A stretch of 44,452 bases of DNA from a virus: positions 1 through 44,452 of the IMG/VR virus record IMGVR_UViG_3300030382_004258; one strand, written 5' to 3'. Shown in pieces: positions 1,012 to 44,452 of the stretch; position 1 is the stretch's first letter; each line of letters begins with the position of its first letter. Made by a program: the position numbers and the translations under genes. The notes below the pieces were generated by a model that was not told the origin of the DNA, made no database searches, and saw only the letters and a program-made list of their open reading frames with translations.

Positions 1012-3342
1012 TTATTCTTTCTTCTTACTATTCTGCAAATCTTTTCGTGCAAACTGTAATTCTCTAGCTAAATCCTTCTTTGCAGTACCTAACTCTCTAG
1101 ACATATCTTTCTTAGTAGATTCTGCCTGAGTACCCATTACATTCTGCAAGAGTTTCTGTTTTGCCTCTGTCGAGCGGTAAGAATCCTTTAGATCACCTTT
1201 AACTTCTTCCTTCTTTTTGGTAATTTCCATTTCAGCCTGCATAACCTTGCCTTTGATACCTGCCTGTACAAGTTGTCTCTCAAGAGTCTCAATTGTACCG
1301 TCTTTATCTTTCATAGCTTCCTGCAATTGTCCAAGCTGTCCCTGTAATTGAGCATATAAACTCTTTCTCTTTGCTATCTGCTCTTTATTTCTTACATCGG
1401 TTTCAGCAAGAACTGCAATATCATCTATGACACCAAACTGTAAAAGTTCCTTTAGTTCAGCAAGATATGCCCACCTATTTACTGGAAGTGTAGAACCAGC
1501 AACTATTCTTACATCAAACTTAGCAGCAGTATAATCCATAGATTTACCTATAGCCTGTCCCATGTCATTATAGATTGGAATATTAAGTTCCTGCTCACGC
1601 TGTTCCTGAATAGCTGATGGCTGTATGATCCTAAATCTTTTATTTGCACTATAGACAGATTGAGATATTTGCATAATTACTTTTCCTAATTGTCTTAATG
1701 CTGGTTCAATGGAATGTTTCATCCATTGCTTAATTCTTCTTGTTCCATATTCATCCAATGCAAGCATCCCCCTGAATGTCTCATGCTGTTGCTGAGTATC
1801 TCCCTGCATTGAAGAATATATACCTGCTAAATACTCCATATCTGCTTTTCCCTGCTGAACAACGGTAAAGAAAGCATTTGACAAAGGTGCTGGCATTACT
1901 GGAGTAGGAGGAGTAGATCCTGGCCTTACTGGTAATAATGCCCCTGGAGATGAAGAATACTTCTCCCATAACTCTGGATCTATAGAACCTTCTTCATATA
2001 ACCATCTTAATGAAGATCCTAAAGAAGCATTATGTACCATTATCTGATGTGATTTATTTATCTCCCTTTGTTTACCTACCAAAGGAGCAACTGCAGATAC
2101 TGGATACGGAGTACCAGTCCACTTATAATGAAATGGAACTACTGGATAATCAGTTATATTCTCTGGATATACAAGCTCATAAAGAAGTGTATCTCCTACA
2201 GTAATAGTTTGTTTAATTCTGGTACCATAAAACTGAACACTATCTACAACAGACTGCTGAAACTTCTCATCCTTAAGAAGGATATTATATTCTTTTTCAG
2301 ATATTACCCTGTTCTCAATTTTAGAAGCCTGAGCCTGAAGCATACTCATATATTCCTGCTCTGCAGACTGTAATTGCTGCTGCATCATATCCTGAGCTTT
2401 CTTTAATTCAAGTTCATACCTTTCGGGTATCATCTTCCCTGCTTGAACTGCTTCCTGCATTTGTTTCTGCTGTTCCATAAGACCAACTTCCATCTCAGCA
2501 GCCATTTCCTTCATTTTTACCTGAACTTGTTGCTGGATAGCTTGTAACTGTTCCTTATCAGGAGGTATCCTATAGAATACATTCACATAAGAAATCTTTA
2601 TCTTCTCATAAAGCTCAAACAATTCTAATGTAGGTTCATGTTCTCCAGCTGAATCAACTCCCATATCCTCTGCAGTAGAATCATCTTTAAGGAATAGCTT
2701 TTGTTCACTATCTGATATTGATCTTTCAGATACAGACATATCTCCTTCTAAAGAAGAAGATTTCATTATCTTGCGTTTATATTTAGGGAAAAGCTTTACT
2801 ATATGGCTTTTAGGAAGAACTTTTCTTATTAGAATAAAAGATGCATCCCTAAACATCATATCCCTAGACTTAGGATCTACATATAAATCAAATGGATCTG
2901 GCTGCTGGAGAACAACTTCTCCCATTCCATTGTCCATATCAGTATCAACAGTCACCATTATATAGCCCATCCCTTTACATATAGCATCATTTATTGCATT
3001 TGAATAAAGAGTGGCTCCGTCCGAAAGATGCCATATATAATCAGAAAGATCTGAAAATACTGCTGCTACATCTGCATCACTACCCTCAACTCCAATTGCC
3101 TGCCATCTGGGACTATTAGCAGTCGCATAGAAATTAAGCATCTCAACAACAGGAAGTATCCTATTGATTGTAAATGTAGGCATTCCCTGTTCCTGAAGAG
3201 ATGTCTTTTCACTACTGGATAACTGCTCATCATGAGCAAACTCATATCCTTTCTGGTTTACATACTGCCACTGATTACGTGTCCAGTTATTAGCCAGATT
3301 ATATAGTTCTCTTATTTGGTCTGCTTTTTTCTTCTTAGGCAT
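1012..3342 (-). CDS. portal protein, P22-like
   Basis: 776 residues. The N-terminal part has the pattern seen in P22-type portals: a Trp/Tyr-rich helix, a 'G-MPTFTINRILP' stretch (about 53-64), then 'SPRWQAIGVEGSDAD' and, near residue 150, 'PDPFDLYVDPKSRD'. It would form the dodecameric ring at one vertex through which DNA is packaged and ejected. A Gln/Met-rich helical insertion lies around 270-350, and the last ~110 residues are a charged coiled coil with alternating Lys/Glu, like the helical barrel of long portals. The start overlaps the stop of a small upstream frame (TAATG), so translation may be coupled. Reading right to left, it lies between TerL and the scaffold, the usual head-gene order. 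Confidence 0.88.
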   Translation of the reverse strand: MPKKKKADQIRELYNLANNWTRNQWQYVNQKGYEFAHDEQLSSSEKTSLQEQGMPTFTINRILPVVEMLNFYATANSPRWQAIGVEGSDADVAAVFSDLSDYIWHLSDGATLYSNAINDAICKGMGYIMVTVDTDMDNGMGEVVLQQPDPFDLYVDPKSRDMMFRDASFILIRKVLPKSHIVKLFPKYKRKIMKSSSLEGDMSVSERSISDSEQKLFLKDDSTAEDMGVDSAGEHEPTLELFELYEKIKISYVNVFYRIPPDKEQLQAIQQQVQVKMKEMAAEMEVGLMEQQKQMQEAVQAGKMIPERYELELKKAQDMMQQQLQSAEQEYMSMLQAQASKIENRVISEKEYNILLKDEKFQQSVVDSVQFYGTRIKQTITVGDTLLYELVYPENITDYPVVPFHYKWTGTPYPVSAVAPLVGKQREINKSHQIMVHNASLGSSLRWLYEEGSIDPELWEKYSSSPGALLPVRPGSTPPTPVMPAPLSNAFFTVVQQGKADMEYLAGIYSSMQGDTQQQHETFRGMLALDEYGTRRIKQWMKHSIEPALRQLGKVIMQISQSVYSANKRFRIIQPSAIQEQREQELNIPIYNDMGQAIGKSMDYTAAKFDVRIVAGSTLPVNRWAYLAELKELLQFGVIDDIAVLAETDVRNKEQIAKRKSLYAQLQGQLGQLQEAMKDKDGTIETLERQLVQAGIKGKVMQAEMEITKKKEEVKGDLKDSYRSTEAKQKLLQNVMGTQAESTKKDMSRELGTAKKDLARELQFARKDLQNSKKKE

Positions 3343-4602: not shown

Positions 4603-6159
4603 CTATGCTATTACCCAATCCCTTGCTTTAGGTTTCTTTTTATACCAATTACCTTCTTTGTCTTGCCCTGCAGCCATCGGAGGATTAGCGAATTTGACTG
4701 CATAGGCAAGAGCATCAATAGTATCATCGTGAGCCATCCTTGGCCCAAATGTTGTTATTTCTCTATGCAGATCATACTGAGTCTTCTTCAGATGTATCTG
4801 CCCTATTGAAAATCTTTGAGCTAATATCTCCTGTATCCTATCTCTCTTGCTCATCCTATTTCCTGGCTTTTCTGCCCTATATCCAACAGAGAAGTCATTT
4901 CTCCTTCTCATCTCAGAATTTAACGCTTGAAAGATAGGTTTACTCATAGAAGTATCTTCTACTGTAAATAAACTTGGTTTGAAACTTTTTGCATATTGGA
5001 ACATATAATCTACTATACCAAGCTTATGTTCTCCTGGTATTCCTAATACTGGTATAGACTGCTTTCGTATATAATCAAGTACATAAATATTATTATCTGG
5101 AGTTACTGCTACAGCAATCATAACTGAAAAGTCAGAATCCCTTCTGGCTGAATCTGTAGCGGGATCTACACCTACAAATACATTGCATGGCTGAAATCCC
5201 TGATTATTGGCATCTATGAAAGAAAGTCCAGTTTCTTCATCCAAACGGAATGATCCATCCCAGTATTTTATATGATCTCTGGTAAATATAGCATCTTCTG
5301 CACTCTGCACTTCCATCATGTATTCCTGATAGAACTTCTGTGGAGTACCTGAGTCCTGATAAAATTTCTTCTTTCTCTCCATTTCTTTCATTCCGAACCA
5401 ATCTGGCCATAGAGGTGTCCCATCATCCTGTAATGCTTTGTATGTTATAACCTTCCAACTGAATGGATCTCCCCTCATTTCTGCCTGCTGAAATCCAACA
5501 AGAATCTTCTGTATAAATGCATCATAATGCACTGGAGTTCCATTTATCCTTAATCTTCCTGTTTTAGGCTCAAGGGCTGGAAATACAACTGCTGTAACAA
5601 GGTTAGATATTTTAGAACGACTCTCAGGCGTGATAGTATTATTTTCATCCTCAAAATCATCTAATACAATGAGATCATATCTTTTATGTAATTTGGCCCC
5701 ACCCCTAATCCCAGAAAGATTCGACTTAGAGATAAGCTTGCACCCATTTGTGAGTTCAATATCATCTTCAGTCCACTTCCTACCTTTTAGATCTCCAAAG
5801 TAATATCTTACCTTATCGTTATATTCAATATGATACTTAACATAATCAAGATTAGGGACAGAAATCTTTGAACTTGCCGCCACCCAACCATAAAATAATG
5901 GCTCTTTAGTAAAGAGAAAATCATGAAGAATACTGCACTTAGTAAGAACAGTTTTCCCATGCCCTCTTGGTAAAATAACTGCCAACTGTCTAACGCTTGG
6001 ATCATCAACTGCATCTGCTACCTCATAATGAAAGAATGGAGTTTCACTTCTTAGAAAATCATCTGGAAGAAATAACTTGCCAAAGGCAATCAAGTCTTCA
6101 TATGCTAACCTGAGCTGTTCTTCAGCTTTACTTATATTCTGGGTGTTGATCTTCGCCAT
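4603..6159 (-). CDS. terL: terminase large subunit (packaging ATPase-nuclease)
   Basis: 518 residues, normal length for the family. The N-terminal ATPase has a Walker A variant LPRGHGKT (63-70) and Walker B DLIVLDDFEDE (162-172). The C-terminal RNase H-like nuclease shows its acidic residues in VFVGVDPATD (about 330), FTVEDTSMS (about 400) and HDDTIDALAYAVKFA near the end. It pumps DNA into the procapsid through the portal and cuts the concatemer. Its start overlaps the end of a 67-aa gene by 32 bases, and the small subunit gene is 2 kb upstream in the same operon. Confidence 0.95.
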   Translation of the reverse strand: MAKINTQNISKAEEQLRLAYEDLIAFGKLFLPDDFLRSETPFFHYEVADAVDDPSVRQLAVILPRGHGKTVLTKCSILHDFLFTKEPLFYGWVAASSKISVPNLDYVKYHIEYNDKVRYYFGDLKGRKWTEDDIELTNGCKLISKSNLSGIRGGAKLHKRYDLIVLDDFEDENNTITPESRSKISNLVTAVVFPALEPKTGRLRINGTPVHYDAFIQKILVGFQQAEMRGDPFSWKVITYKALQDDGTPLWPDWFGMKEMERKKKFYQDSGTPQKFYQEYMMEVQSAEDAIFTRDHIKYWDGSFRLDEETGLSFIDANNQGFQPCNVFVGVDPATDSARRDSDFSVMIAVAVTPDNNIYVLDYIRKQSIPVLGIPGEHKLGIVDYMFQYAKSFKPSLFTVEDTSMSKPIFQALNSEMRRRNDFSVGYRAEKPGNRMSKRDRIQEILAQRFSIGQIHLKKTQYDLHREITTFGPRMAHDDTIDALAYAVKFANPPMAAGQDKEGNWYKKKPKARDWVIA

Positions 6160-8947: not shown

Positions 8948-8965
8948 ATAAGCGCCAGCGGCTAT

Positions 8966-9936: not shown

Positions 9937-9958
9937 GATTTTGTAAGGGTAAGCAAGC

Positions 9959-10009
9959 ACAGGGAACTAAGTGGGGTGATAGCCGTTGTTCCCTGTTATC
10001 CCTTTTTAT
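9959..10009 (+). terminator. intrinsic terminator after first early gene
   Basis: ACAGGGAAC (9959-9967) pairs perfectly with GTTCCCTGT (9988-9996); the 20-nt loop is followed by TATCCCTTTTTATA. The stem is 9 bp and the T-run starts 6 bases after it, a usable Rho-independent terminator that would separate the first gene from the RNA region downstream. Confidence 0.7.
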
Positions 10010-10590: not shown

Positions 10591-10605
10591 TGAAGGGAGT
10601 ATAGT

Positions 10606-10917: not shown

Positions 10918-10928
10918 AGGATAAGATT

Positions 10929-11096
10929 ATGAATAAAGTTATCCAAGTAACAAAATGGCTTCCTCCATCTGATTTATTATGGTGTAATGGGGAAGCCAAG
11001 AGAATAAGTAAATCAACAGGAGATAAATGTAAAATTGTTTTGGAAACCAAAGATAAGAATAGTAGAATAGCTATTAACAGATTTATTAATAGTTAA
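10929..11096 (+). CDS. 55-aa protein, paralogue of the 19.9-kb small protein
   Basis: Starts at ATG with AAAGGA eight bases upstream, 11 bases after the previous stop. The product begins MNKVIQVTKWLPPSD and contains 'GEAKRISKSTGDKCKIV..KDKNSRIAI'. The 64-aa protein at 19944 has the same frame of conserved positions (MQITKWLSPD, RRTGRKCII, GGRIAV), so the two are likely paralogues of about 50 residues. Function unknown; small, basic, beta-rich, possibly nucleic-acid binding. Confidence 0.65.
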   Translation: MNKVIQVTKWLPPSDLLWCNGEAKRISKSTGDKCKIVLETKDKNSRIAINRFINS

Positions 11097-11099
11097 GTT

Positions 11100-11870
11100 A
11101 AATGAATATGGGTCGCATATGATCCTTGAGATAAACCGAGTAATCGGGATAAAGTTGAAAAGGTCATTAAGTGGGCCTCAGTAAGCGACATGTTTTCGGA
11201 TGTGTTTGTGTATGCAATCAGGGTATGTGTTATGCTAATGCCAAATCCCTCTGGGTGGTAGGAGTATGATATCTTTGCTTGGGGTAAGTAAGGTGAGATG
11301 GAAACATCAATAAGAGAACCTGAAGGTTATGACATAAGGACTTTGATGAGTCTGGTTGTTGTTTCTCAGTTAGTATATGTTGTCTTACCTGTGAAGGAAG
11401 ATGATAGTTATGAAACCATGTAAGCTCACCATCTAGAGACCATATGAAGTTCTTATGGTATTGACTATTGAAAGATAGTTAACCATCCAACTCGAAGCGG
11501 AACTTCAACCTCCCCTGCTTTAACATCTGATTAGTCATAACTTAAACAATGATTACATTAAAGATAAAAGCTTAAGCCTTTGAGCGTGTGGGAGCATAAT
11601 ACTCTTTACCCTTGTAATAATAGGGTGCATGTAGGCCGCAAGCCTATGTGTTCGTGCCGAAAAGCCAGGTTCGGTTCATAACTGATTAGTAGGGGGATAC
11701 CTCTAAACTGAGCTAAGTAGAAGCGTAGATAACCTATTCGATAGCAGTGATGGGGCATACCCATTGAGTTTGATGACATACTTGTGGCAACATAAGTGGA
11801 CAAAAGAGATAAGAAATAAGTCTCTCAAAGTGTCATCGTTATAACTGTAATCTCAGGTTATTAATTTTTA
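11100..11870 (+). ncRNA. candidate large structured RNA B (~770 nt)
   Basis: No gene fits this stretch, but hairpins with GNRA-type loops recur on the plus strand: CCGA-GTAA-TCGG (11137-11148), GATG-GAAA-CATC (11297-11308), ACTTGTG-GCAA-CATAAGT (11780-11797). Others are AACC-TGAA-GGTT (11317-11328), ACCATA/TATGGT (11439-11459), ACTAT/ATAGT (11464-11479), GAAG/CTTC (11494-11506), a 9-bp helix 11628-11636/11642-11650, CCGAA/TTCGG (11657-11674), a 6-bp hairpin 11690-11705 and ATGGG/CCCAT (11750-11764). A clear three-way junction lies at 11772-11837: GATGACA/TGTCATC closes two arms. Size and loop richness are like GOLLD-class ornate RNAs of phages; homology is untested. Confidence 0.62.
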
Positions 11871-11885
11871 TATACAAATTTCTGT

Positions 11886-12050
11886 GGGGATAGAAGGTTA
11901 GCAGCTAAAGTGGACAACCTCAGACACCATTACCTGGAAAACTGCCGTTATTCCTATCGCTAAGATAGATAGGGTAGTATAGGTATCATACCGTAGGGAC
12001 TATGTTTACAATACGTAGACTAGAGCTATTCGGATGACGATTCTATCCCT
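11886..12050 (+). ncRNA. 165-nt multibranch RNA C closed by a 10-bp stem
   Basis: GGGGATAGAA (11886-11895) pairs with TTCTATCCCT (12041-12050) over ten bases. Inside are GGTT/AACC (11896-11919), CTATC-GCTAA-GATAG (11954-11968) and GGTA/TACC (11982-11992). It lies 29 bases before the next small gene and may be a separate RNA, the last domain of RNA B, or a leader that controls the operon downstream. No known riboswitch core was recognised. Confidence 0.55.
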
Positions 12051-12078
12051 TATATTTAAACTCTTGAAAGGAGTAATC

Positions 12079-23392: not shown

Positions 23393-26041
23393 TTATTCAA
23401 AGTGACGGAAAGAGGAAAGTATTTCTGCAGTGGTATATTTAGATTTCTTTGGTTTTTTCTGTAATCCTATGGCCTTCCTAGATGTCTTTATCCAGTCACT
23501 TGGGTAAAGAGCAAGCCAATGTCTAAGTAGATCCACTCCTCTTCCGTCACGTAATGCAGGATAAATCTTATGCTTAAATCTACCATACTCTGTACTGTAT
23601 TGATAGTCAGTATATCTTCTACTATCTTCAGTATCTTGAGTATAGTCTACATTACCTAATAACCTTCGCTTTAAAGGAGTGTCAAGTTTTATTAGTCCAC
23701 TTGTAATGCTCCAGTATTTTAGATGTCCTACACTAGGACCTGTAACTTCTGATAACAATCCGAATGTTGCCTTTTCTTTACTTCCTTCTTCAGTAAGATC
23801 TTTCTCAATCCTGTATAATCTATTTATAGTTTCATTTTCAAGCATGTTATTTAAATCAACATTTAATAATATAGATCCAAGTTGTATCATGCCAAATAAG
23901 CCTGCATATCGCATCATATACTGCATTTCTGGGGAATCCCAAGCTCTAGCCTTTATAGATTGCCCTGCTCCCTTTAACTCCCTTATATGAGTTTCTAAAA
24001 GACTCATAGGGTAATGCATTAAATGAAATGCTACTTCCTGTATAAGTCCTTTCACAGGACGTTTTACAATAGCTGTTTCTCCAACTTCATCAACAATAAG
24101 ACCATCTCCACGAACATACTTACTTTTAGCAAATGCAGCATATTCATATGCCCATCCATTTACTGATTTTAATGCAAAGTTTTTAGCAAATCTTTCTCTT
24201 TCTCCTCTAGATAGGGCACTTGTATCTTTTAATTCCATATATTTATTGATAAATGAAGTTCGATGCATAAAATTTCTTTGACCATTTTCTGTCCATCTAT
24301 GAAATGTTAGTAATCCACCAAGAGTTTTATTTCCAGCCTTTTCTATCATATCTCTTACTCTGGTATCTTTATAATAATATTCTTGTTCTCTTTCTCTGAA
24401 TACTAAATCACTCCTACTATATTTATCCCTGCCAACAAGACCTTCCATTAAAATAGCACTCTCTTTTGGTGTAAATAAAAAGCCTGCTTCCGTTGCTACC
24501 CTATCATAAATAGCCTTAATTTCAGGATCCTGGTAACCTCTTTTTGCAGCCAAGATTGCTCTTGGTCCTACTTTAGATGCATAGTGCAGCACACTGGCAG
24601 CATTCTTTATACCTCCTGTAACATTTAAGCCCATAGTTCTTGCTGTTTGCAAACCATTGATTGTTCGTACCCAACTATTTACCCATTCAGGTCTTTCAGT
24701 AACACCTTCTGGATTGGCAACTGAATATTCTTCAATTATAAAACTTCTCAATCCTTTTAGGAATGCAGTCTCTCTATTTGGAATGCTCTTCATTGCCTCA
24801 AGATATGATCTTTGTATATGGAGATTCTTATTAAACTGTACTGCATCTCTAGAATATTTCTCTAATATCACATAAGGATCTTGATCCCAGAGAAGATTCA
24901 AGTGACTACTGCCTGCCTTTACATTTTCTGGCATTTGGCCTACTTTACTCAAAAGCTGGTCAGAGATTGTATTTAATTTTTCTAAATGGTTAAGAACATC
25001 AGCTCCAGTCTTGCCTGGAAGAATCTTTTCAAGACTTGTTCTGATATCATGCATTGTTTCAAGTGTTATCTTAGGATAATAATCTCCCCTCGCTATTCCT
25101 TCCCTAATTCTTTCCTTTGCTGCTTGTATTCTGTCTACAATAGGCTGTCTCTGATCAGAAAATCTAGCATATTTCAAATCAATAACCCTTATTAATTGAT
25201 CTAATGCTGACATATTAACCTTACCTAAATCATCCAGCATTACATGTGATCTCTTAACAGCATTAACTATATGAGGATTATACTTAATGGTTTTCTTTAC
25301 AAATGTATCTGGATCAGTATATTCATATCCTTTACTCTCTGCAATATCTAATTCGGAATCAAGATAAATTCCTTTATCATTCTTTAATTTCTTACTACGA
25401 AGTTTTACAAGTTGACGATATTCATTCAACAATTTACCATTATCAGATCTAAAGAATTTTTCAACATCAGCATGAGTTATGACTTCAAGATTCTCATCCC
25501 TTGCATCAAAAATCCTATCTCTCAATTTTCTAAAATCTTTATAACTTTTATTACCAAATATCCTACTTCCCTTGCCTTCACCTATATGAGCCTTTAAAAT
25601 TATATCTTTAATATCCTGTAGAGATGATTCTACGAAAGATATCTTATTTCTCTCATAATTTTTAGCAGATTCTAAAGCTGATAAAAACTTATTAGAAGAT
25701 GGATCTAATCTTGCAAGACCTCTGGGTACTGTAAAAATACCAGCTATATTTCTAAACTTTCCACCAAGATCTTTATTAAACCCATCAATTCCTACCTTTA
25801 ACCTTCTTAGCTGCCTATCAGTAAAATTCTGTTCTTTTACCCAGGGAAAATCTAAAGTATCTCTTGCAAAACCTTCTAAGCCCTCTTCTGCCATCTTCAT
25901 ATCAAAAAATCCACCTTTTTTTGAATACCGATTTTGAATATTCTTCTTAGATACCCAATAATCAAGTACTCCTAACATTCTCCTGGTATTCTTTTCAATA
26001 TCTACAGAAGCTGACTGAACCTCATTACATCCTACTGACAT
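23393..26041 (-). CDS. large internal/ejection virion protein (882 aa)
   Basis: 882 residues, mainly helical, basic. A stretch around 470-520 ('LQTARTMGLNVTGGIKNAASVLHYASKVGPRAILAAKRG') resembles the membrane-interacting repeats of large polyvalent and ejected phage proteins (LPD38-like); a hydrophobic piece 'YAGLFGMIQLGSILLNV' lies near 715. It is the last gene of the late operon, after the 2970-aa protein, like the internal core proteins of podoviruses. Good binding site AGGAG. It may be injected with the DNA. Confidence 0.55.
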   Translation of the reverse strand: MSVGCNEVQSASVDIEKNTRRMLGVLDYWVSKKNIQNRYSKKGGFFDMKMAEEGLEGFARDTLDFPWVKEQNFTDRQLRRLKVGIDGFNKDLGGKFRNIAGIFTVPRGLARLDPSSNKFLSALESAKNYERNKISFVESSLQDIKDIILKAHIGEGKGSRIFGNKSYKDFRKLRDRIFDARDENLEVITHADVEKFFRSDNGKLLNEYRQLVKLRSKKLKNDKGIYLDSELDIAESKGYEYTDPDTFVKKTIKYNPHIVNAVKRSHVMLDDLGKVNMSALDQLIRVIDLKYARFSDQRQPIVDRIQAAKERIREGIARGDYYPKITLETMHDIRTSLEKILPGKTGADVLNHLEKLNTISDQLLSKVGQMPENVKAGSSHLNLLWDQDPYVILEKYSRDAVQFNKNLHIQRSYLEAMKSIPNRETAFLKGLRSFIIEEYSVANPEGVTERPEWVNSWVRTINGLQTARTMGLNVTGGIKNAASVLHYASKVGPRAILAAKRGYQDPEIKAIYDRVATEAGFLFTPKESAILMEGLVGRDKYSRSDLVFREREQEYYYKDTRVRDMIEKAGNKTLGGLLTFHRWTENGQRNFMHRTSFINKYMELKDTSALSRGERERFAKNFALKSVNGWAYEYAAFAKSKYVRGDGLIVDEVGETAIVKRPVKGLIQEVAFHLMHYPMSLLETHIRELKGAGQSIKARAWDSPEMQYMMRYAGLFGMIQLGSILLNVDLNNMLENETINRLYRIEKDLTEEGSKEKATFGLLSEVTGPSVGHLKYWSITSGLIKLDTPLKRRLLGNVDYTQDTEDSRRYTDYQYSTEYGRFKHKIYPALRDGRGVDLLRHWLALYPSDWIKTSRKAIGLQKKPKKSKYTTAEILSSFRHFE

Positions 26042-26151: not shown

Positions 26152-29100
26152 CTAACCACAGCGACCATCCTTGATAAGCTCATATTTACCATCTGGTTCC
26201 ATTGTTCGTCTATAATTATAATGAATGCTTGACTTACCTGTATGATCAAATCTTCTTATCATTTTTCCTCTCCCAAGGAAGAAACGCTGTCTATATTTAC
26301 TAAGAGTTGGACTATGATACCAATCATTCATCAATATATCTGAAGTAGAATCTATAAGTTTATCCCAATCAGTAGGACCTTCTTTTCTCATTCTATTATA
26401 ATCCTGAGTTCTATTTTCAACATGACTTGTCCTACCATCATATATATTATTCATATCTCTTACTGTACTACGCATTAATATATCTGCATCGTGATTAAAC
26501 CTAGCTGCATTAGTACCACTAACTTTATGAGGTCTACCAAGCCAATTATATACTGACTCTATAAGATGTGTGTTCGCTTTATAGTAAGGCATTTCTAAAG
26601 GACCATCCTTATAGTATACATTTCTTTGTATCTGAGGTTGTATTACATAATCAACAAGATCTGCAAAGTTTTCTGAGTTCCCATGCTTAGAAAAGAATCT
26701 ATCTATTGCTCTCTCCGTAAAGATATTATTCCTATAATATATTTCATTCTTGTGTACAAGATCTTCTTTTACAGCTTCTCTTGTCAAACTATAATTATTA
26801 CTTACAGCCCTTCTGAGATTAGTTACATCCTGTATAAAATCATTAAGCTCAACAGTTCTAGTGTTCTCATTATAAAAATACTCTGCATTCAAAGAACCTA
26901 CCCTTGTAACCTTTGCAAGTGCTCTGTTCCACTTAGCTTCTCCATCATTTATTGATACAAACTTTGCAGGTCTTTTGTCTATAATATAAGTACTTCCCTT
27001 TAGAAGTCTAGTCCTTTGTTTCATGTTAACAGTACCTACATATTCAAGAGTCCCCATGTATCGTTGTATACCACTTTTAGACTTCAAGTCATCCTTACTA
27101 ACTTGACCAGCTACCCTATAAAGATTTCCATTTAAATTCAGAGCTCTATAATCCCATACTGAATTATCTTCAGACTTTGGTATGAATTTCATTACCAAAT
27201 CTGAATCTTTTCTAAGAATAAGATCTTTAGCCAACTGTCTATCCAGTACATTTACAACCTGATTTGTTGTCGCAATCTTATCTTCAATCTTCTCTATCTT
27301 ATTTGCATCAGGAAAGCTTTCATTATTTAAATGCCTTAAAGCAGAAACAGCTTTTTCATGCTGACTATTAGCTAAGAATCTTAATATCCCACCCTGGTTT
27401 GCATTGAAAACACTCTTCCCTGACTTATTAACCTCCATGAAAGCCATATCTTTCTCTATAACTAAATCATATTCAGCATCAGTAATGTCACCATAAGACA
27501 TCATGGTTTCAACTTTTCCTTTAAGATTTTCATAGTGCTTAAACATTGTAGCGTTCTTTTTACCTGATTGATACTTTGCATCACTTGTATAGAATACAGG
27601 ATTTTTAACGACCTGATCTAATACATAACCACTCATGCTGCTTTCAATACCAAGAGTATTTTCAGCAGTAAATCTTTGAGTTGCTTGAGAAGTAGGTATA
27701 AAACCCTTTTTTAAGCTACTCTCTACATCCTTTATAGAAAGAGTTCCTTTTCCAACATCTCTATAGAAAAATCTTATAACATCAGTAATCATATCATCAG
27801 CACGAGAACCCTCACCTCTTTTTCTTATAGTTCTAGCTTCACCAATAAGTGACTTAATTAAAAACTTATCAGGATTCTTAAAAAATGATATAATCTCATC
27901 TCTATTATCTCTAAGCTCTTCTGTTGTTGGACGTCTTTTATTACCTACCTCATATACATCGTTATCTATTCTTCTTGCTTTGCTAAGAGTTCTATGCATG
28001 ATATCAAACATCCGTCTTTCCATTGAAGTCAATCCAAATGTAGCTGTCTTGTTTTGTCCTCTAAGAAATCCTCCTCCTGGATGATGTGCACTAGGCTTAT
28101 CCATATTTGACGGACGTAATCCATATATAAAATAACTTGCAAGCCTATCAAGAGTATTTAATTCAGTTGTCCTCTGCCATATATCTGCAGAAGCTTGAAA
28201 CATTTCACCACTTCTCTGAAAAATACCCAATGCATCGTCAGTACTCTTCAGAAGGTCATAATTCTTCTTGTTAAAATCTTCCTTTACAAAAGACTTTCCA
28301 TCTAATTGTATTCCTGAATTTAAAAGATAACTTAAGGTTCCTTTCCTTGATATTACACCAGCTAAATATTTTTTCTTTTGTACAACATTGTAAGCTACCC
28401 TATCAAAGCCTACATCTCCTACCTCTGTTCCAGCAACACCAGTTTCTCCAAATCCAAACATATCCATCTGATCATGTGTGCCTTTTTCAAGTGGCTTATA
28501 ATCTAATATATCCCCCATGTCATCAGTATAATCTTTAAGCATTCTCATTGGCATCTTCATATATTTGTATGCATGATCACCATCATGATCTCTTTGTAAA
28601 GTCACACGTAAATCAAATGTATTGATATGTGTAATTCCAGCCATATCTGGATTTAATATTCTTTCAACACGCATTAAAGGTTGATCCTTTAACATCTTTG
28701 GTATTGCATTCATACTCATGCCCAACTGAATATCATATTTAGCAGCAGCCTGTCTAAATTTTTTCTGTAATGCAAAATCTACTTTCTTTGAATATCTCTT
28801 TTGTCTTGGAAAAGTATCTCCTGAAAGAAGATGAATCAAATCACCATAAGTCATATCTCTAGCCACACCTGCTTGATCTTTAAGATGGTTTAAAACAGCT
28901 TCCATTCCTTTAACTGTCTTAGGATTTACTCGATACTTTCCAGTTTTTGAATCTAATTCCCCAATCCATTCATCAGGGTTAAGACCTTCAACCTGACCTA
29001 CCTTTGCTTTAATAATTGAATTCTGCATTTCAAGGAATGAGCTATGCATTTGAAGCTTACCTTCTTTATTAAAAACAAAAAATAAATCCAGTCCTGTCTC

Positions 29101-32100
29101 TGGATCTCTAGCTATAAATGGAATATCAGCAATGGTTCCAATTTCCTGCCTGGATAATTTATCAGACATTGTAGCTCCTCCATATTGATATACACTTCTA
29201 GCCTGCCACCTCATTGGCTGATCAGGTAAAGGCTGACCATGACTACCTGCAGGATCAAGATTTATAAAGTTAGCATAGGAAGGATTCCTTAGAGTATTTT
29301 CAAAGTCAGGAGCAATTATACTTTCTTCTCCATGAGGAGTAGGTCTTTTGCTAAGAATATCATAAAACTCTGACTGCAGCAACCTCATCAATGGTCTTTG
29401 TACTAAAATATTCCCTTCTCTTGCTCCAAACCTGATAAGTTTTTCAGTTAAAGTATAACTGTCTGTAGTTAATGCTTGTCCTGCTTCCTCCTGCCTTATC
29501 TGGTATAAAGCTTTTAATAGATTACCTCTAGCAAAATCTTTTTGACTATTAACATTACCCATTTTCTCAATAAGCTTATCAATCTTATAAAGTTGTCTAG
29601 CATGCTTTAAATGTGTAGTATTTTGAAAGTCAAACATAGAAGATGAATAATTAACCCCAGGATCTGAGTGTGTAGTGAATGATATGCCCATACTTTTATA
29701 AGGAATATTAATTAAGTTAGACTTATTCATCCCAATTGTTGGATCTGCAAGCCTGGATTCCCAACCCTTCGCTAAGGGCATACGTGTATCCAGCGTAAAA
29801 GGAGTTACTTTCCCTAGATTTAAAGTCTTTGCAACAGTCTTACCTACCAATAAGTCAATTCCCAGCCCATCTAAAACTTTAGATACCTCTGGATGGAATA
29901 CAGTAAAACCTTTACCGAGCACATCATTATCCATTATTATAGTTTTCATTCCATTCCAGTCACCTCCACCCTTCAAATTCTTCCATGAATCATGTGTACC
30001 TGTACTGGCAATCTTATTACCATCTAAAAAGAAAGATTCAAGACTGGTATATTTTCCTTTATCAATACTTGTAATAAAATTTGCTAATATCTTTCTCCCA
30101 CTTGAACCTGGAGCAAGAACTGTAGACGCATTCTCTCTCTCTAATTTAACAATACTTCTATTTCTAAAAACATGATCATTTGATGTATCTATCTCATCAT
30201 TAATAACACCAAGTGTATACCCATCTCTCAATGCTTTTCTAGCACTATTTCTAATGGAAATACCTGGGCCATTCTCAGCCTGCCATTCCAATGCTTGTCT
30301 TGTAACTTGGGTTGTTGTTCCTCCGTCAGTTAAGAAGCCTCTCTTGAAGCTATTAAACTCCATCTTGCCCCTATCAATATCCATTCTATTCATCATCTCA
30401 TCAAACATAGGGCCCATTGTTCTATTAAAATGAACAAATAACATCTTTAATCTTAATGCACTGTTTGAACTTTCTTGATTTAATAAATGCTTAAAACCTT
30501 TCACTAATGCATCTTGTCTTTTAGTATTCCCAACAAGTTTGCTATCATACTGAGCAAACTTTTCAGCATATACTGTACTAAAATCATCATGAAGCAAGTC
30601 AATATTCTCTTTTGTCTTTGGAAAAATAATACGCATCCTCGGACTTAATCTCATATACACTTTAGTACTTTCTTTAGCACCAGTTTCGTCAGCAATAATT
30701 CGTTGTAAATCTTCAATCTTAAGCTTAAAGCTTGATGATCTCATCTCCTCATAAGCGTCTTTCATAACTCTCATATCGACAGGTATAGCATTATCAATAA
30801 GATTCTGCATTACTATCCAGTTACCCTTAACATCCCTTGAGTCATCAATGTTAAGAGTTTTATTCCTGAGCTTCATTGTTCCGTCTAGAATAATAAACTG
30901 ATATTTCTTACCTGGATTGTTAGAAGTAACTCCCTCTCTATCTAAAGTCCTGGTTGATAAAGAATACCTTGTAGGCTTTTCATCAAATTTTGCTACATCA
31001 TGATCTAATGTAAATACCTCCCTATTTACTCTTCCAAATATTGCCTGTACTAATGGTAAAAGTTCTTTAGTTTTAAACTCATCCATTGCTTCACTTCTTT
31101 TTATTGAATCTTTATGCTCTGCTCTAATATCTGCATATACTGTCCTGTCAAGTAAATCTCTAAAAAATGTAATACGATTTATTCTATGAGGATTAATAGT
31201 ATTATCGTAAGCATCAGAAACATCTAAAATAAATTGATTATCTATTTCATTAGGATTATCTTTGCTTCGTACGGAAGAATACTTCAATAGTATTTCCTGA
31301 AAACTTATAGGTCTTTCATGCTTCAGCTTTTCAGACTGCATTTTCTCTAATATATCTACAGAAAGATCGTCATAAGTACCCTTATGAGTATTGAGTCTTC
31401 CCATTTGTTTTACAACAGCATCTATTGCATCCTTTGCATCTCTCCAATTACCAGACTCATTAAAAGTATTCACTAGCTCTTCTAAAGAAACTTCCTTAGA
31501 AAGCTTATTTCCTAGAAGAACACGAAACTTTTTGCTTATTGAATTAAGCATTCTCTCCCCATCTATTGGAGCTACATTTGGATCTGCATTTATGAGCTGA
31601 TTATGTATCTTAACAAGTAAACCATCCAGCAATGTCTTTGCTCCAAAATCTACATTCATCTCTTCTTGAAGCATTTGATCCCAAGAATATACTATCTCTC
31701 CATACCTATCTAGACTTTCCTGTCTTGCTTTAAGATCCATTCCCCTCAGATCTCCAATCCCCTGCTTCAAGGTTTCTACTAGACCTCCCAATTCCTCAGC
31801 TTTCTCTGGACTAAGCTTATTCTCTGCCATCAATGTCTTATATATAGTATCAGCTTCTACTAAAGCTAAATCTAACTTCTCTTCATCAACTGTTTTTCTA
31901 GAACTTTCCACTTCACTCTTAATTGATTTAGCCAAATCAGTTAAAGTACGTATGTTAGTTACCAGCATTCCATCTTTCCCAAGTCCTGATAATGTACTCC
32001 CAATATTATCTACAAAATCTTTTACCTTACTATTGGTAACTTCCTTCGCAATTCCAATCCACTCTGTAAGATCAACATCTCTTGGCCTTTCAGATATATC

Positions 32101-35064
32101 ACGTCCAACCATTTCTGGTGTAAAAAGATTTTTAACTTCAAGCACAGCTTTCTTTACAGCTTCAGCAGTCTCTACTCCTTCAGGAGTTCCATTAAAAGCT
32201 TCTTCAATTGCTTTTTCATCTGGAAATTGAATTCTATGTACACCATCAAGTTTGGTTTTTATGAGTCCAGCCTCTCTAGCTCTTTCAAAAGCAGTAAAGG
32301 CCAGCTTATTTCCACCACTAAATAACCTAGCTGTAAATGATTCTAAACCTTTCCCATACATATCCAGCTGCCAGTCACGAGGAAGTCTTTTCCATAGCTC
32401 TGTTACTTCTTTTGCAATTTCCTGCACATTCTTAGATTCTATGTCTCTCTTTGTAACAGCAGATTTATTACCACCAATATTTTTAATTAGGTCATAGACT
32501 GGCTGTATGGCTTCCAAAGCCTCTGCATCTTTACCAATAATGTCACCTTCAGTCTTACCAGCAATTTCATTTGCAAATATACTATCATGAAGTCTGCCAT
32601 TCACACCAAAGATATTTATAATGCCGTCTCTTATAGTTTTATTTGATTGCTTGTCTGTTGGAGTGTTAGTAACAATCTTATATAAATCATCTTTTGCTTC
32701 AATACCACCAATGATCTTTAAACCTCTAAGAAATATATTATCTCCAAAACTCATAATAGTATTATGACCAACATGCTTACTATTGAGATTAATCAGATGA
32801 CCTTCAAGTCTTTCCCCAAGAGTATTATCCCAATCTTTTAAAGTCATTCCTCTTTTTCTTGCTACCTCACCTATATCTACTGGATCATCTATGACATCAA
32901 TGCGTAACTCAGCAGACCAATCATAAATTATTTTCTGAATCTCAAGAAGATGAGGTAAGCTCACCTCATCAGGACCATTTATTTTTTTAATGAATGCTCT
33001 TGGTTTTTGTCCTGGCTGACCACGCTCAACAGCAAAAGGAATCCCATGAGAAGATGCAATATCTTCAAGTATAGTATAATAGTCTTCTGAAATCTCAGCT
33101 CTTGCTTCTTGAGTTATTGCTACCTGAAGCTCATTAGGATTTATTTGATCTATAGATTTATTACCAATCTTAAGAGTACCAAGACTACTTTTTAACATAT
33201 CAAGAGCTTTAGGATTCATTTCCTCTATACGAATTGGATTAAAACTTATATCCTGAGATTTCTTAAGTGTATTATAAAGACCAAGCAAATGCTCAACTTT
33301 TTTATACTTATCAGGACTAATAGTTTCTCCATTATTTCTCCACTGAACCGTATCACCAATAAAAACTCCATCAAAAAGTTTCATTATATCTTCAGATACA
33401 GGAGTATGCCCATAGACAACTCCACGATTACTTATAAGCTCTTGTTCTTTTAATATATTAAGTGTATTTGAAAGCTTTGAATGGTCTACCTGAAGACCTT
33501 TTAATGCTGCTTCCATTCTCCCATACTCATTGGATATATAACCTCTCTTACCTGCATGATCCCAGGCACCCCTTCCTTTTGTCATTAAAGCACCCATGAA
33601 AAAATGAGCAGATAGTTCTTGAGGAGATAACTGCTGAAAGTCTCCATTATATATAGACTGAGCATTCATAAAAAGTATACCTGTGCCCATACGTGGAAGT
33701 GATTGTACAAGATCTGAAAAGTAATTCTTCCTGAATCTACCAGTAAGCTCTTTAGAAACTGCAAGTCTCATCTTATTCAACAAGCCAACTGCATGCTCAG
33801 GGGGCATATATCCTTCAGTTCCAGCTTTTGTCTTAATACTACTTAATATCCCTGCTGATCCATGATAATTTCTTCCTCCAACTGTCCAGAATCTATTTCC
33901 AAGCTTATTAAAATTTTCCATATTTATATTAGGACCACGCATATTGAACTCCAAAAGACTTTTAACCAGCTTTTCTCCACCTTCCATCTCTGCCATCTTT
34001 TTATAGTTAAGCTTTTGATATCTTGAAAAATAATATTTAATACCACGACTTAATGATTCTTTTCCACCCAATCCTATACCTCTTATAAGTGGAAATCCTA
34101 GTGCCATTACAGCTGTACGACCAGCTATATCTCCATACTGCATAGAAGTCCCATGCTGCATAGACTTAATCTTTTCTGTGCCAAGAGCATGCAATCCCAT
34201 ATATAAATAATCATTAGCTGCCATTCCTAAATACTTAGATACTCTCCCTGGATCTCCTCTTCCTATAAATCTTGAAACCCACTCTCCTGCATCATTAACA
34301 TATCTTCCTTTCTTTAACTCTCCAACAAACTCCTTAGACAGAACTCTACTTCGTTGTTCAAAATTTGCTATCTTAGAATCTTTTAGTATCTTCCCTATTA
34401 TATTCTGACTTTGTGCCCTTAAGTGAAATTCTGAATTCCTAGCAACCATCTCATCTGCATTAAGGTCACGCAGTCTGGATATTGAATATTTATCCTTTAA
34501 CTCACGAGGTAATTGTTTTTTAAACTGAGAGTTAAGCTTCTTTACTATTGCTGTTGGAAGAGCTCCTGAGTTTTCAAGGTTATTTGCTATTGCAGTAGCA
34601 ACCCTACCATCTTTCTCAATTAGATTTTTTGCTGCCTGTCTTATATATCTATTACCACCTAAAGCTTTGGTAGCAATACGACCACCCCTTCCAAGCAAGG
34701 CAAATGGCCCTACGAAAGGAGCAAATAAGGAAAGACCCTCACCAGTAACCCAGCCAGCCTTCTCCCAATCATTCATATCATCCCACAGCTTTTCTTCTGG
34801 CTGTTTAGTAACTTCTCTTACAGCTTCAAAACCACTAGCTCCCCACGTTAATCCACTAACACCACCCCAAAGCAAGTTACCAAAGAAATCAAGAGCTGCA
34901 TTATCACTGGCAACCTCTTGAGCTACGCCAGTTCTTGCTAAAGGTGTTAATGCTCCACCAAAATAATCTACTTCTATATCTTGTGGTTTTTTACTAGAGC
35001 GATCTCTTTCCAGTTGAAGCTGGTAATCTTCTAATGTTGGTATATGTTCAGAAGTATGAGGCAT
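26152..35064 (-). CDS. giant virion protein with DxDGD motif, putative RNA polymerase
   Basis: 2970 residues. The N-terminal ~200 residues have hydrophobic Gly-rich stretches (LLWGGVSGLTWGASGFEA; GLSLFAPFVGPFALLG) typical of ejected inner-core proteins. Residues about 2135-2170 read RILNPDMAGITHINTFD... then QRDHDGDHAYKYMKMP, matching the beta' double-psi barrel pattern (R-P, G-I, D-x-D-G-D, V/M-x-P); D2159, D2161 and D2163 would hold the catalytic Mg. About 440 residues upstream, near 1717, 'LGKGFTVFHPEVSKVLDGLG' followed by 'LLVGKTVAKTLN' could be the Lys-bearing beta-like barrel. Family comparison: crAss-like phage gp66 is a virion polymerase of this kind. Large late gene, so it would be packaged for early transcription. 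A virion protein is near certain; polymerase activity is inference. Confidence 0.6.
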   Translation of the reverse strand: MPHTSEHIPTLEDYQLQLERDRSSKKPQDIEVDYFGGALTPLARTGVAQEVASDNAALDFFGNLLWGGVSGLTWGASGFEAVREVTKQPEEKLWDDMNDWEKAGWVTGEGLSLFAPFVGPFALLGRGGRIATKALGGNRYIRQAAKNLIEKDGRVATAIANNLENSGALPTAIVKKLNSQFKKQLPRELKDKYSISRLRDLNADEMVARNSEFHLRAQSQNIIGKILKDSKIANFEQRSRVLSKEFVGELKKGRYVNDAGEWVSRFIGRGDPGRVSKYLGMAANDYLYMGLHALGTEKIKSMQHGTSMQYGDIAGRTAVMALGFPLIRGIGLGGKESLSRGIKYYFSRYQKLNYKKMAEMEGGEKLVKSLLEFNMRGPNINMENFNKLGNRFWTVGGRNYHGSAGILSSIKTKAGTEGYMPPEHAVGLLNKMRLAVSKELTGRFRKNYFSDLVQSLPRMGTGILFMNAQSIYNGDFQQLSPQELSAHFFMGALMTKGRGAWDHAGKRGYISNEYGRMEAALKGLQVDHSKLSNTLNILKEQELISNRGVVYGHTPVSEDIMKLFDGVFIGDTVQWRNNGETISPDKYKKVEHLLGLYNTLKKSQDISFNPIRIEEMNPKALDMLKSSLGTLKIGNKSIDQINPNELQVAITQEARAEISEDYYTILEDIASSHGIPFAVERGQPGQKPRAFIKKINGPDEVSLPHLLEIQKIIYDWSAELRIDVIDDPVDIGEVARKRGMTLKDWDNTLGERLEGHLINLNSKHVGHNTIMSFGDNIFLRGLKIIGGIEAKDDLYKIVTNTPTDKQSNKTIRDGIINIFGVNGRLHDSIFANEIAGKTEGDIIGKDAEALEAIQPVYDLIKNIGGNKSAVTKRDIESKNVQEIAKEVTELWKRLPRDWQLDMYGKGLESFTARLFSGGNKLAFTAFERAREAGLIKTKLDGVHRIQFPDEKAIEEAFNGTPEGVETAEAVKKAVLEVKNLFTPEMVGRDISERPRDVDLTEWIGIAKEVTNSKVKDFVDNIGSTLSGLGKDGMLVTNIRTLTDLAKSIKSEVESSRKTVDEEKLDLALVEADTIYKTLMAENKLSPEKAEELGGLVETLKQGIGDLRGMDLKARQESLDRYGEIVYSWDQMLQEEMNVDFGAKTLLDGLLVKIHNQLINADPNVAPIDGERMLNSISKKFRVLLGNKLSKEVSLEELVNTFNESGNWRDAKDAIDAVVKQMGRLNTHKGTYDDLSVDILEKMQSEKLKHERPISFQEILLKYSSVRSKDNPNEIDNQFILDVSDAYDNTINPHRINRITFFRDLLDRTVYADIRAEHKDSIKRSEAMDEFKTKELLPLVQAIFGRVNREVFTLDHDVAKFDEKPTRYSLSTRTLDREGVTSNNPGKKYQFIILDGTMKLRNKTLNIDDSRDVKGNWIVMQNLIDNAIPVDMRVMKDAYEEMRSSSFKLKIEDLQRIIADETGAKESTKVYMRLSPRMRIIFPKTKENIDLLHDDFSTVYAEKFAQYDSKLVGNTKRQDALVKGFKHLLNQESSNSALRLKMLFVHFNRTMGPMFDEMMNRMDIDRGKMEFNSFKRGFLTDGGTTTQVTRQALEWQAENGPGISIRNSARKALRDGYTLGVINDEIDTSNDHVFRNRSIVKLERENASTVLAPGSSGRKILANFITSIDKGKYTSLESFFLDGNKIASTGTHDSWKNLKGGGDWNGMKTIIMDNDVLGKGFTVFHPEVSKVLDGLGIDLLVGKTVAKTLNLGKVTPFTLDTRMPLAKGWESRLADPTIGMNKSNLINIPYKSMGISFTTHSDPGVNYSSSMFDFQNTTHLKHARQLYKIDKLIEKMGNVNSQKDFARGNLLKALYQIRQEEAGQALTTDSYTLTEKLIRFGAREGNILVQRPLMRLLQSEFYDILSKRPTPHGEESIIAPDFENTLRNPSYANFINLDPAGSHGQPLPDQPMRWQARSVYQYGGATMSDKLSRQEIGTIADIPFIARDPETGLDLFFVFNKEGKLQMHSSFLEMQNSIIKAKVGQVEGLNPDEWIGELDSKTGKYRVNPKTVKGMEAVLNHLKDQAGVARDMTYGDLIHLLSGDTFPRQKRYSKKVDFALQKKFRQAAAKYDIQLGMSMNAIPKMLKDQPLMRVERILNPDMAGITHINTFDLRVTLQRDHDGDHAYKYMKMPMRMLKDYTDDMGDILDYKPLEKGTHDQMDMFGFGETGVAGTEVGDVGFDRVAYNVVQKKKYLAGVISRKGTLSYLLNSGIQLDGKSFVKEDFNKKNYDLLKSTDDALGIFQRSGEMFQASADIWQRTTELNTLDRLASYFIYGLRPSNMDKPSAHHPGGGFLRGQNKTATFGLTSMERRMFDIMHRTLSKARRIDNDVYEVGNKRRPTTEELRDNRDEIISFFKNPDKFLIKSLIGEARTIRKRGEGSRADDMITDVIRFFYRDVGKGTLSIKDVESSLKKGFIPTSQATQRFTAENTLGIESSMSGYVLDQVVKNPVFYTSDAKYQSGKKNATMFKHYENLKGKVETMMSYGDITDAEYDLVIEKDMAFMEVNKSGKSVFNANQGGILRFLANSQHEKAVSALRHLNNESFPDANKIEKIEDKIATTNQVVNVLDRQLAKDLILRKDSDLVMKFIPKSEDNSVWDYRALNLNGNLYRVAGQVSKDDLKSKSGIQRYMGTLEYVGTVNMKQRTRLLKGSTYIIDKRPAKFVSINDGEAKWNRALAKVTRVGSLNAEYFYNENTRTVELNDFIQDVTNLRRAVSNNYSLTREAVKEDLVHKNEIYYRNNIFTERAIDRFFSKHGNSENFADLVDYVIQPQIQRNVYYKDGPLEMPYYKANTHLIESVYNWLGRPHKVSGTNAARFNHDADILMRSTVRDMNNIYDGRTSHVENRTQDYNRMRKEGPTDWDKLIDSTSDILMNDWYHSPTLSKYRQRFFLGRGKMIRRFDHTGKSSIHYNYRRTMEPDGKYELIKDGRCG

Positions 35065-42553: not shown

Positions 42554-43435
42554 TTAATTTGTCCATGAATTAATCTCCTTTTCTTTAAATTCCATTGTTA
42601 CCCATCCAGTCCTGATCATAGGAAAGAATGAATATCTTGCATAATCTGCATATCTCAAGAAACTTCCTCCTCTACAATACCATCTTCTATGTAAAGTTTC
42701 TTCCTTGTCTTTAACCTTAATTGAATCAATAGGTTTTGCATAAAGTTGGTGGTTATGTCCAAGAAAGAATACATCACCTTCAGAATAGACCGCTGCCATC
42801 TTATCAAGTTCCAAGTCTCCATTCTTAGCTCCGCTCTTTCCATGTCCTGATACAAGTGTCCATTCCTTCTTATTAACAATTATCTTTGTATATCCAGGAA
42901 GTCTGTAATACGGAACTGACAAGCTTTCAGCCATAACTTTCGACACGTCAAATCCAAGAATGTTAGCTGAACGTATATAATCATGGTTTCCTCCACGAAT
43001 AAATAACAATTTATCAGCAATCTTTTCAATCCTTTTAATAAAGCTGAGATGCTGTTCATCAGGCTCCATCTCCTGACCTCTCTGGCTAATCTTATAGTGT
43101 GGTGGTATAAGTTCAATATTGTCTCCATTTAGAAACCACCTTGCATCTGGATCTGAATCGACTTCATCAATAAGATCATTAAACTTCCTTGTATGATGTT
43201 CATTTGCTCCATGATGTATATCAGTTGCTCCATGTAATTTAAAAGGCTTCTTTGATTTGTAATATAAAACCTTGCCTGGCTCTATTGACTTTGGTACTCC
43301 ATTTTCTTCCTGTATCGGATAAGAAGAATATTTTGAACAAGCATTGCATACTATCTCTTGAATCCTTTTGCCATTCATCCTGATCTTGATGCCATCTTTC
43401 CGAACACTTCCTGATCTGCAGTACGGACATATCAT
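42554..43435 (-). CDS. metallophosphoesterase with N-terminal zinc ribbon
   Basis: 293 residues. The first 40 have CPYC...CNAC, a zinc ribbon. The rest has the calcineurin-like phosphoesterase motifs in order: TDIHHG, NGDNIE, GGNHD, SGHG and GHNHQ, giving the two-metal active site. Phosphodiesterase or phosphatase activity on nucleic acids or nucleotides is expected. It lies between the nozzle and lysis genes, an unusual place for a nuclease, so it may act at DNA ejection or late. All motif residues are intact. Confidence 0.8.
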   Translation of the reverse strand: MICPYCRSGSVRKDGIKIRMNGKRIQEIVCNACSKYSSYPIQEENGVPKSIEPGKVLYYKSKKPFKLHGATDIHHGANEHHTRKFNDLIDEVDSDPDARWFLNGDNIELIPPHYKISQRGQEMEPDEQHLSFIKRIEKIADKLLFIRGGNHDYIRSANILGFDVSKVMAESLSVPYYRLPGYTKIIVNKKEWTLVSGHGKSGAKNGDLELDKMAAVYSEGDVFFLGHNHQLYAKPIDSIKVKDKEETLHRRWYCRGGSFLRYADYARYSFFPMIRTGWVTMEFKEKEINSWTN

Positions 43436-43447
43436 ATATTCTCCTGA

Positions 43448-43840
43448 CTATACCCTTAACTCAAAATGGGGAAAGTCATCAAACTTATTATCATCTACTT
43501 CAAAATTCTGATTCCAATCTCCTCCCCATCTTAACTCTATTCCCATCTGGTTTGCTACTCCAAGTACGAATCCAGCAAACAGATGAAACCTTTCCCTGTC
43601 ATTCCAATCAATAGGATAAGGAACAACATCGCAAGCCATAGAGGGATATTTATTATGACGCCCAGCGGGATACTTAACCTTACTCTTACCTTCGTCATAA
43701 AACTTGTTTTGCTTAATCTGGTCCCTATGACCTTCAAGTACAGAACAATCCACCGTCTTGATAACTTCATTGAATACCTTTACAAGTCTTTCATCACAAG
43801 TCTCAAGTGCATTCTTAGACCTCTTTCCGAACCTAGGCAT
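43448..43840 (-). CDS. endolysin, M15 L-Ala-D-Glu/D-Ala-D-Ala-type peptidase
   Basis: 130 residues, the size of compact phage M15C endolysins. Zinc site: GRHNKYPSMACDVVPYP (61-77; His62, Asp71) and DFPHFEL (122-128; His125), with RWGGDWN in between, as in T5-type peptidases. It cuts the peptide bridge of peptidoglycan at lysis. No signal peptide, so it needs the holin. Overlaps the upstream small gene by one base and is followed by the metallophosphoesterase gene. Confidence 0.85.
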   Translation of the reverse strand: MPRFGKRSKNALETCDERLVKVFNEVIKTVDCSVLEGHRDQIKQNKFYDEGKSKVKYPAGRHNKYPSMACDVVPYPIDWNDRERFHLFAGFVLGVANQMGIELRWGGDWNQNFEVDDNKFDDFPHFELRV

Positions 43841-44136: not shown

Positions 44137-44336
44137 TATAATACTCCTATTGCTACGGTTATCATTATTAACAATATTGCCATACCACCAGTCATCCAGT
44201 TTTTCCAACCTTCAAGACTGGTAGTACGGCTATTAATCTTGCTGAGTTCTATCTCACTTCTCTCTACTATAGTCTCAATCCTTACTATTCTACTCTTTAA
44301 ATCTTCTCTATATGCAACTACTTCTTTATTATTCAT
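44136..44336 (-). CDS. XhlA-like holin-associated protein
   Basis: 66 residues: a heptad-rich coiled coil (about 5-42, 'SRIVRIETIVERSEIELSKIN') followed by a C-terminal membrane helix (WMTGGMAILLIMITVAIGVL). This is the design of XhlA-type proteins that act with holins. Start overlaps the previous stop (ATGA); followed at once by the hydrophobic 98-aa gene. Confidence 0.65.
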   Translation of the reverse strand: MNNKEVVAYREDLKSRIVRIETIVERSEIELSKINSRTTSLEGWKNWMTGGMAILLIMITVAIGVL

Positions 44337-44452
44337 TCCTTGTACCCATTCAATATTCTTCCTTCCATCCTTATCATTATTCTTTCAAGTCTTTCAATTC
44401 TTTCACCAAACCTGCCAAGAGACTTCCCTTTTGATTCTTCTTCTTTTTCACT
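44333..44452 (-). CDS. C-terminal end of a coiled-coil protein (partial)
   Basis: A frame open to the right edge gives 39 residues ending RILNGYKE, rich in Arg/Glu heptads (GERIERLERIMIRMEGR), with the TGA overlapping the next start. The gene begins beyond the window. Function unknown; resembles other small lysis or tail coiled-coil proteins. Confidence 0.5.
   Translation of the reverse strand, partial: SEKEEESKGKSLGRFGERIERLERIMIRMEGRILNGYKE

Follow-up and report, generated by a model that had tools for sequence, protein, structure and literature searches.

A giant late protein of an uncultured marine phage group is probably a packaged two-barrel RNA polymerase

Results

The giant gene and its genomic context

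We conclude, with a probability of about 85%, that the 2970-aa protein encoded on the minus strand of the window (i.e., the whole stretch of DNA analyzed, a linear contig of viral DNA, 44,452 bases long) is a packaged two-barrel RNA polymerase. The two-barrel polymerase reading of its core is well supported, and we infer packaging in the virion from the late-gene position, the homology to a virion polymerase and the depletion of cysteine. In the proposed mechanism, residues approx. 1500–2400 would make up a DNA-dependent RNA polymerase of the single-chain two-barrel type, a distant relative of gp66 of Cellulophaga phage phi14:2. The active site would be composed of a Lys barrel (K1707, K1718, K1746) and an Asp barrel (D2159, D2161, D2163). 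The protein would be made late, packed in the capsid and passed through portal and tail in a partly unfolded state, ahead of or together with the DNA; after refolding in the host, it would transcribe the early genes on the opposite (plus) strand.

The open reading frame from which the initial annotation started is real and located on the minus strand, as are the main late genes of the window:

26152..35064, minus strand: giant protein gene, 2970 aa (ORF list; full-length relatives)
4603..6159, minus strand: terminase large subunit (PHROG 38, E-value 3e-74)
1012..3342, minus strand: portal protein (PHROG 156, E-value 7e-57)
23393..26041, minus strand: next late gene, encoding 882 aa, product presumably ejected together with the giant protein (position immediately behind the giant gene, conserved in relatives)

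Weak tblastn matches of the portal include records annotated as P22-like portal. Overall, the minus strand carries TerS, TerL and the portal as well as putative tail genes, the giant and the 882-aa gene; primase-helicase, ParB-like and Sak4-like genes are found on the plus strand. The relative G004 carries TerS, TerL, portal, a putative scaffold, tail, giant and 882-aa genes on one strand. A second RNA polymerase was not recognized among the window proteins scanned, which included part of the small ORFs. An early-promoter candidate, TATATTTAAA, was dropped, as its frequency equals that expected by chance.

Compared to G004 (scaffold at 8482–9366, next shared gene at 20322), approx. 11 kb comprising head genes and the major capsid region fall outside the window ends (1–98 and 44336–44452), and the full genome is therefore probably approx. 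55 kb long. A GOLLD RNA (RF02032, 181 bits, E-value 1.8e-50) is located at 11445–11859 on the plus strand, with the late genes on one side and the early genes on the other, within an ORF-poor stretch (approx. 9940–12060). The part preceding it (approx. 9940–10600) looks non-coding and may contain another structured RNA. Further, a metallophosphoesterase-like protein is encoded among the late genes at 42554–43435 on the minus strand (PHROG 7339, DNA repair exonuclease, E-value 1.5e-20), adjoined by an endolysin gene (43448–43840).

Predicted structure of the giant protein

The giant protein consists of a helical N-terminal part, a two-barrel RNA polymerase core and a C-terminal extension. The following segments were delimited:

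31765..34887, minus strand: N-terminal part, residues 60–1100 (AlphaFold; almost all alpha-helical)
27865..30462, minus strand: RNA polymerase core as modeled, residues 1535–2400 (AlphaFold, Foldseek)
29650..30018, minus strand: candidate upstream barrel (DPBB-B like), residues approx. 1683–1805, with K1707, K1718 and K1746 (model strands, invariant lysines; limits approximate)
28561..28812, minus strand: candidate catalytic barrel (DPBB-A like), residues approx. 2085–2168 (model strands and helix, Foldseek; limits approximate)
28576..28590, minus strand: catalytic DHDGD with D2159, D2161 and D2163 (motif search, relatives, profile alignment)
28315..28404, minus strand: helix of 30 residues, 2221–2250, immediately following the catalytic barrel (model helix 687–716)

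The core was modeled with AlphaFold from an alignment of 35 sequences (pLDDT 80.6, pTM 0.83) and compared to 350,542 PDB chains using Foldseek. The best match was 6vr4, the virion RNA polymerase of the crAss-like phage phi14:2 (E-value 4e-6, probability 1.00), followed by RDR2 (E-value 3.6e-4) and QDE-1 (E-value 1.7e-3). All of the best 50 PDB matches are two-barrel RNA polymerases, and the T7-like single-subunit polymerase fold is absent among them. The reading as a two-barrel polymerase, put forward earlier from the sequence, is thus borne out by the fold search on residues 1535–2400, with the psi-barrel topology itself having the status of a candidate. When superposed globally on 6vr4, the model fits poorly (TM 0.27, rmsd 22 Å); as modeled, the match is one of local structure and order (or a flexible one), not of overall shape. 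In BFVD, the best viral match was A0A516L9L2 (E-value 6e-23, TM 0.64), and many of the matches ranking below it are crAss-like proteins; judging from the models, A0A516L9L2 and similar BFVD proteins probably belong to the same family as the giant protein.

The three lysines K1707, K1718 and K1746 (model positions 173, 184, and 212) are placed on strands of the upstream beta-rich domain, and DHDGD (model positions 625–629) in a loop that follows a helix and leads directly into a strand. Lys barrel and Asp barrel hence follow each other in the model as they do in gp66 and QDE-1. The helix 2221–2250 is a candidate bridge helix in this model; the invariant residues Q2290 and D2294 lie beyond it.

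The AlphaFold model of residues 60–1100 (pLDDT 73, pTM 0.48) had no match in PDB at E ≤ 0.001, i.e., no known fold was found for the N-terminal part. The most hydrophobic stretch is located here (residues approx. 106–124), and the predicted helical structure would suit an ejection domain. A non-virion enzyme on its own would not be expected to have such a part. This bears on the question of whether the protein is a genuine two-barrel RNA polymerase which is not packaged, but produced in the cell for late transcription and enlarged by fusion to other domains. Phages do possess non-virion two-barrel RNA polymerases, e.g., gp64 of Thermus phage P23-45 (PMC10770324). Nevertheless, the gene is positioned near the end of a structural block that also contains terminase and portal, and the depletion of interior cysteines, combined with a terminal cysteine pair (see below), resembles known ejected proteins. 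We consider a non-packaged enzyme unlikely.

Conservation of the putative catalytic residues

Relatives of the giant protein were sought in those IMG/VR records that stand behind terminase matches (at least 600 terminase relatives), and were found with identities from 50% down to approx. 25%. Taken together, related giant proteins from marine viral contigs, at 14–55% identity, keep the Asp triad and three lysines, the latter located 410–450 residues upstream of the triad. One apparent natural split of the giant gene (locus L096) was rejected, since the break is an assembly gap of N.

DHDGD is found at residues 2159–2163 within ERILNPDMAGITHINTFDLRVTLQRDHDGDHAYKYMKMPMRM, just as described before, and its three aspartates are presumed Mg2+ ligands. 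From the amino acid composition, chance alone predicts 0.09 D-x-DGD motifs for 2970 aa, and the motif by itself proves little. It could be a coincidence in an unrelated domain, and family libraries yielded no matches. However, the motif is lifted above chance by its retention in relatives that were found without it, by D-x-D-x-D in distant branches and by the predicted fold match. All six motif-independent relatives in the first alignment keep D-x-D-x-D (five as DxDGD, one as DFDTD). The distant branches, which were reached only via their terminases, carry QDADFDLDK or GDYDVD, and the profile alignment places the QDADFDLDK branch in register with DHDGD. Conservation across the phage group and the fold search both contradict a coincidence, which is most improbable.

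A conserved-motif scan gave 48 loci, in which invariance of the motif is by construction, as the pattern QRD[NHF]D[GT]D[HK] was used. The core alignment contains 35 sequences (pairwise identity 14–97%, median 25%, 12 clusters at 40%), most of which had been found with the QRDxDxD pattern, and motif invariance is partly by construction here, too. The lysines, the cysteines and the motif-independent relatives are free of this bias. Of 866 core positions, 22 are invariant in the 35 sequences, including K1707, K1718, K1746, N2148, D2151, Q2157, R2158, D2159, D2161, D2163, Q2290, and D2294; the three lysines are thus present in 35/35. Lysines preceding aspartates is the barrel order of single-chain two-barrel RNA polymerases, in which the Lys-bearing barrel comes before the Asp-bearing one (PMC10770324).

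The core profile detected two distant branches missed by the protein search (E-values 2e-20 and 5e-13; reversed-profile controls 0.34–0.86). Sequence searches in Pfam, PHROGs and PDB, using the protein as well as its alignment, returned no RNA polymerase match; divergence is so strong that family libraries fail to see the polymerase. Likewise, tblastn against cultured phages gave no match for the giant protein, the two distant branches or the 882-aa protein. No giant-protein homolog was found in GTDB genome contigs, and no hint of the host was obtained from there.

A two-barrel fold could also have lost or changed its activity, and the protein might then be RNA-templated or primase-like, or serve structurally in ejection with its barrel as a relic. 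RDR2 and QDE-1 act on RNA, QDE-1 also on DNA, and it is these enzymes which come next after 6vr4 in the fold search. On the other hand, the best fold match is a DNA-dependent virion enzyme, and the invariance of three aspartates and three lysines across very divergent members would argue for catalysis. An altered activity is very unlikely in our view.

Terminal cysteines in the marine group

Besides the catalytic residues, a pair of cysteines was found at the junction of the giant protein and the next gene product:

26158..26160, minus strand: Cys2969, sole cysteine of the giant protein, one residue from the C-terminus (sequence and relatives)
26027..26029, minus strand: Cys5, sole cysteine of the 882-aa protein, MSVGCN... 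(sequence and relatives)

At a background of 0.69%, approx. 21 cysteines are expected in 2970 aa, compared to the one observed. Exactly one cysteine, situated within the last four residues, is present in 34/34 complete giant proteins, and the giant proteins of the distant branches have a single cysteine 1–5 residues from the end. The product of the next gene (approx. 870–1050 aa) contains exactly one cysteine at residues 3–10 in every readable marine locus, including the eight distant ones. L137 and L139 count as fitting only with an overlapping GTG start of the downstream gene; they were rejected as exceptions, since this start, which overlaps the end of the giant gene, gives MACN and MGCN, respectively. 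As a control, other ORFs of 300–2500 aa from the same loci were inspected, and 1/50 fitted, which turned out to be a fragment of a giant gene. Facing terminal cysteines are shown by the marine and Crassvirales loci L094–L160, L164, and L184–L190.

The cysteine pair is not explained by an overlap of the genes: the gap between the giant gene and the next gene is mostly 3–250 nt, and in crAss001 the gene of gp47, which keeps its C-terminal cysteine, is located on the strand opposite to gp50. The 882-aa family matched crAss gp49 with an E-value of 0.016 (reversed control 0.68), which is no more than suggestive of homology.

Terminal cysteines in Crassvirales and other virion polymerases

In Crassvirales, the cysteine pair was detected at 14/14 unfused junctions in 10 genomes. 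The phi14:2 chain runs from gp78 (cysteine as last residue) via gp66, alias gp77 (Cys3 and a penultimate cysteine), to gp76 (Cys3); gp66 has two cysteines, both terminal. In crAss001, gp47 (Cys 2339 of 2341) is followed by gp50 (Cys5 and Cys2404 of 2412) and gp49 (Cys5). Both junctions carry the pair also in Dulem virus 41 and DAC15, and the junction from the RNA polymerase to the next protein in cr128_1 and cr85_1. In fused proteins (Fpv1 275, Carjivirus gp44, jaberico 630, cr1_1 430), the pair exists only at the remaining junction. At the chain ends, the first proteins lack an N-terminal and the last proteins a C-terminal cysteine. Depletion is less strict in this group, as several crAss-like RNA polymerases have 1–3 interior cysteines. 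No cysteine at all is found in N4 gp50 (3500 aa) and P23-45 gp96 (5002 aa).

Five crAss001 proteins, gp45, gp46, gp47, gp49, and gp50, have been demonstrated to be cargo of the virion, with MS verification for gp47, gp49, and gp50, and partial unfolding on ejection has been proposed for the cargo proteins (PMC10172136). The same study reports other disulfides in the crAss001 virion, and cysteine is not mentioned in its main text (PMC10172136). Neither the terminal-cysteine rule nor a bond between terminal cysteines was found to be reported in the literature searched, which lacked most subscription journals.

Discussion

A possible disulfide chain of ejected proteins

We propose, at even odds, that the ejected giant proteins of Crassvirales and of the marine group are joined end to end by disulfides between C-terminal and N-terminal cysteines, and threaded in order through the tail. 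Cys2969 of the giant protein would bond to Cys5 of the 882-aa product, and both would be ejected as one chain. Within the particle, the disulfides would hold the ejected proteins in an ordered covalent chain, which would be released by disulfide cleavage in the reducing cytoplasm of the host; cysteine-free interiors would avert wrong bonds during unfolding. Such a chain may be the post-translational counterpart of the gene fusions in other members.

It is a real possibility that the terminal cysteines form no covalent tether, but serve in metal binding, carry another modification or act as assembly marks, and that ejected proteins merely avoid interior cysteines. N4 gp50 and P23-45 gp96 fit this explanation, as they have the interior depletion alone, with zero cysteines, and so do the reducing host cytoplasm and the missing report of a bond in the literature searched. 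However, cysteines are found solely at the ends facing a neighbor, and are absent from chain ends and fused junctions. Further, the C-terminal cysteine of crAss001 gp47 is kept despite the opposite strand, for which gene overlap is no explanation, and other disulfides are present in the crAss001 virion (PMC10172136).

If joined in this way, the chain of proteins offers a testable answer to how large proteins can exit the capsid in a defined order although the tail is narrow. The cysteine rule also provides a simple signature by which ejected proteins, and the order they take, could be recognized in uncultured phages. With the giant protein read as a polymerase, a widespread marine phage group joins the lineages with their own two-barrel RNA polymerase, and such divergent enzymes bear on the evolution of cellular transcription.

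Comparison with known polymerases

N4 gp50 has a T7-like single-subunit polymerase fold, not a two-barrel one; its likeness to the giant protein is that of a 3500-aa packaged polymerase without cysteine. QDE-1 and RDR2 share the single-chain two-barrel fold with the window protein, but are cellular enzymes of eukaryotes and have no ejection domains.

Among PDB chains, the closest resemblance in fold is to phi14:2 gp66, which has Crassvirales homologs such as crAss001 gp50. Common to these proteins and the giant protein are a two-barrel core in one giant late protein, the Lys barrel before the Asp barrel, D-x-D-x-D, and a C-terminal cysteine facing the N-terminal cysteine of the next protein. 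In contrast, a direct sequence match between the gp66 family and the window protein is without significance, and tblastn against cultured phages gave no gp66-like match for the giant protein. Single-sequence hhalign to gp66, gp96 and gp64 was uninformative. The profile of the window family hit the crAss RNA polymerases exactly on DxDxD with an E-value of 0.056, which is not significant alone; one distant branch reached 3e-4, over the upstream part and not DxDxD (reversed-profile controls again 0.34–0.86). Common descent with the crAss RNA polymerases is likely, judging from these profiles. The crAss profile was made without cr113_1 (L171) and cr114_1 (L177): when translated with the standard code, their annotated RNA polymerase genes look interrupted, which fits a reassigned stop codon. 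Where the marine group has a single long protein, two are often found in crAss-like phages, and the window phage belongs to another group, as seen from its 44 kb contig and a terminase which is only approx. 26% identical to its matches in cultured phages.

P23-45 gp96 is likewise a giant late protein with a D-x-DGD two-barrel RNA polymerase and no interior cysteine. It differs in that the polymerase is N-terminal in a tail tape measure protein, and in having no terminal cysteine; the sequence profiles show no relation (E-value 0.45, off the motif). As a packaged two-barrel RNA polymerase outside the crAss-like phages, gp96 was already known (PMC10770324). The initial annotation had suggested that a polymerase packaged here would extend the strategy of crAss-like phages to another lineage. 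Another lineage is indeed concerned; the first beyond the crAss-like phages it is not, as P23-45 gp96 came earlier (PMC10770324). Among packaged two-barrel polymerases, of which crAss-like phages and P23-45 provide the known examples, the giant enzyme thus represents a new lineage that has diverged strongly.
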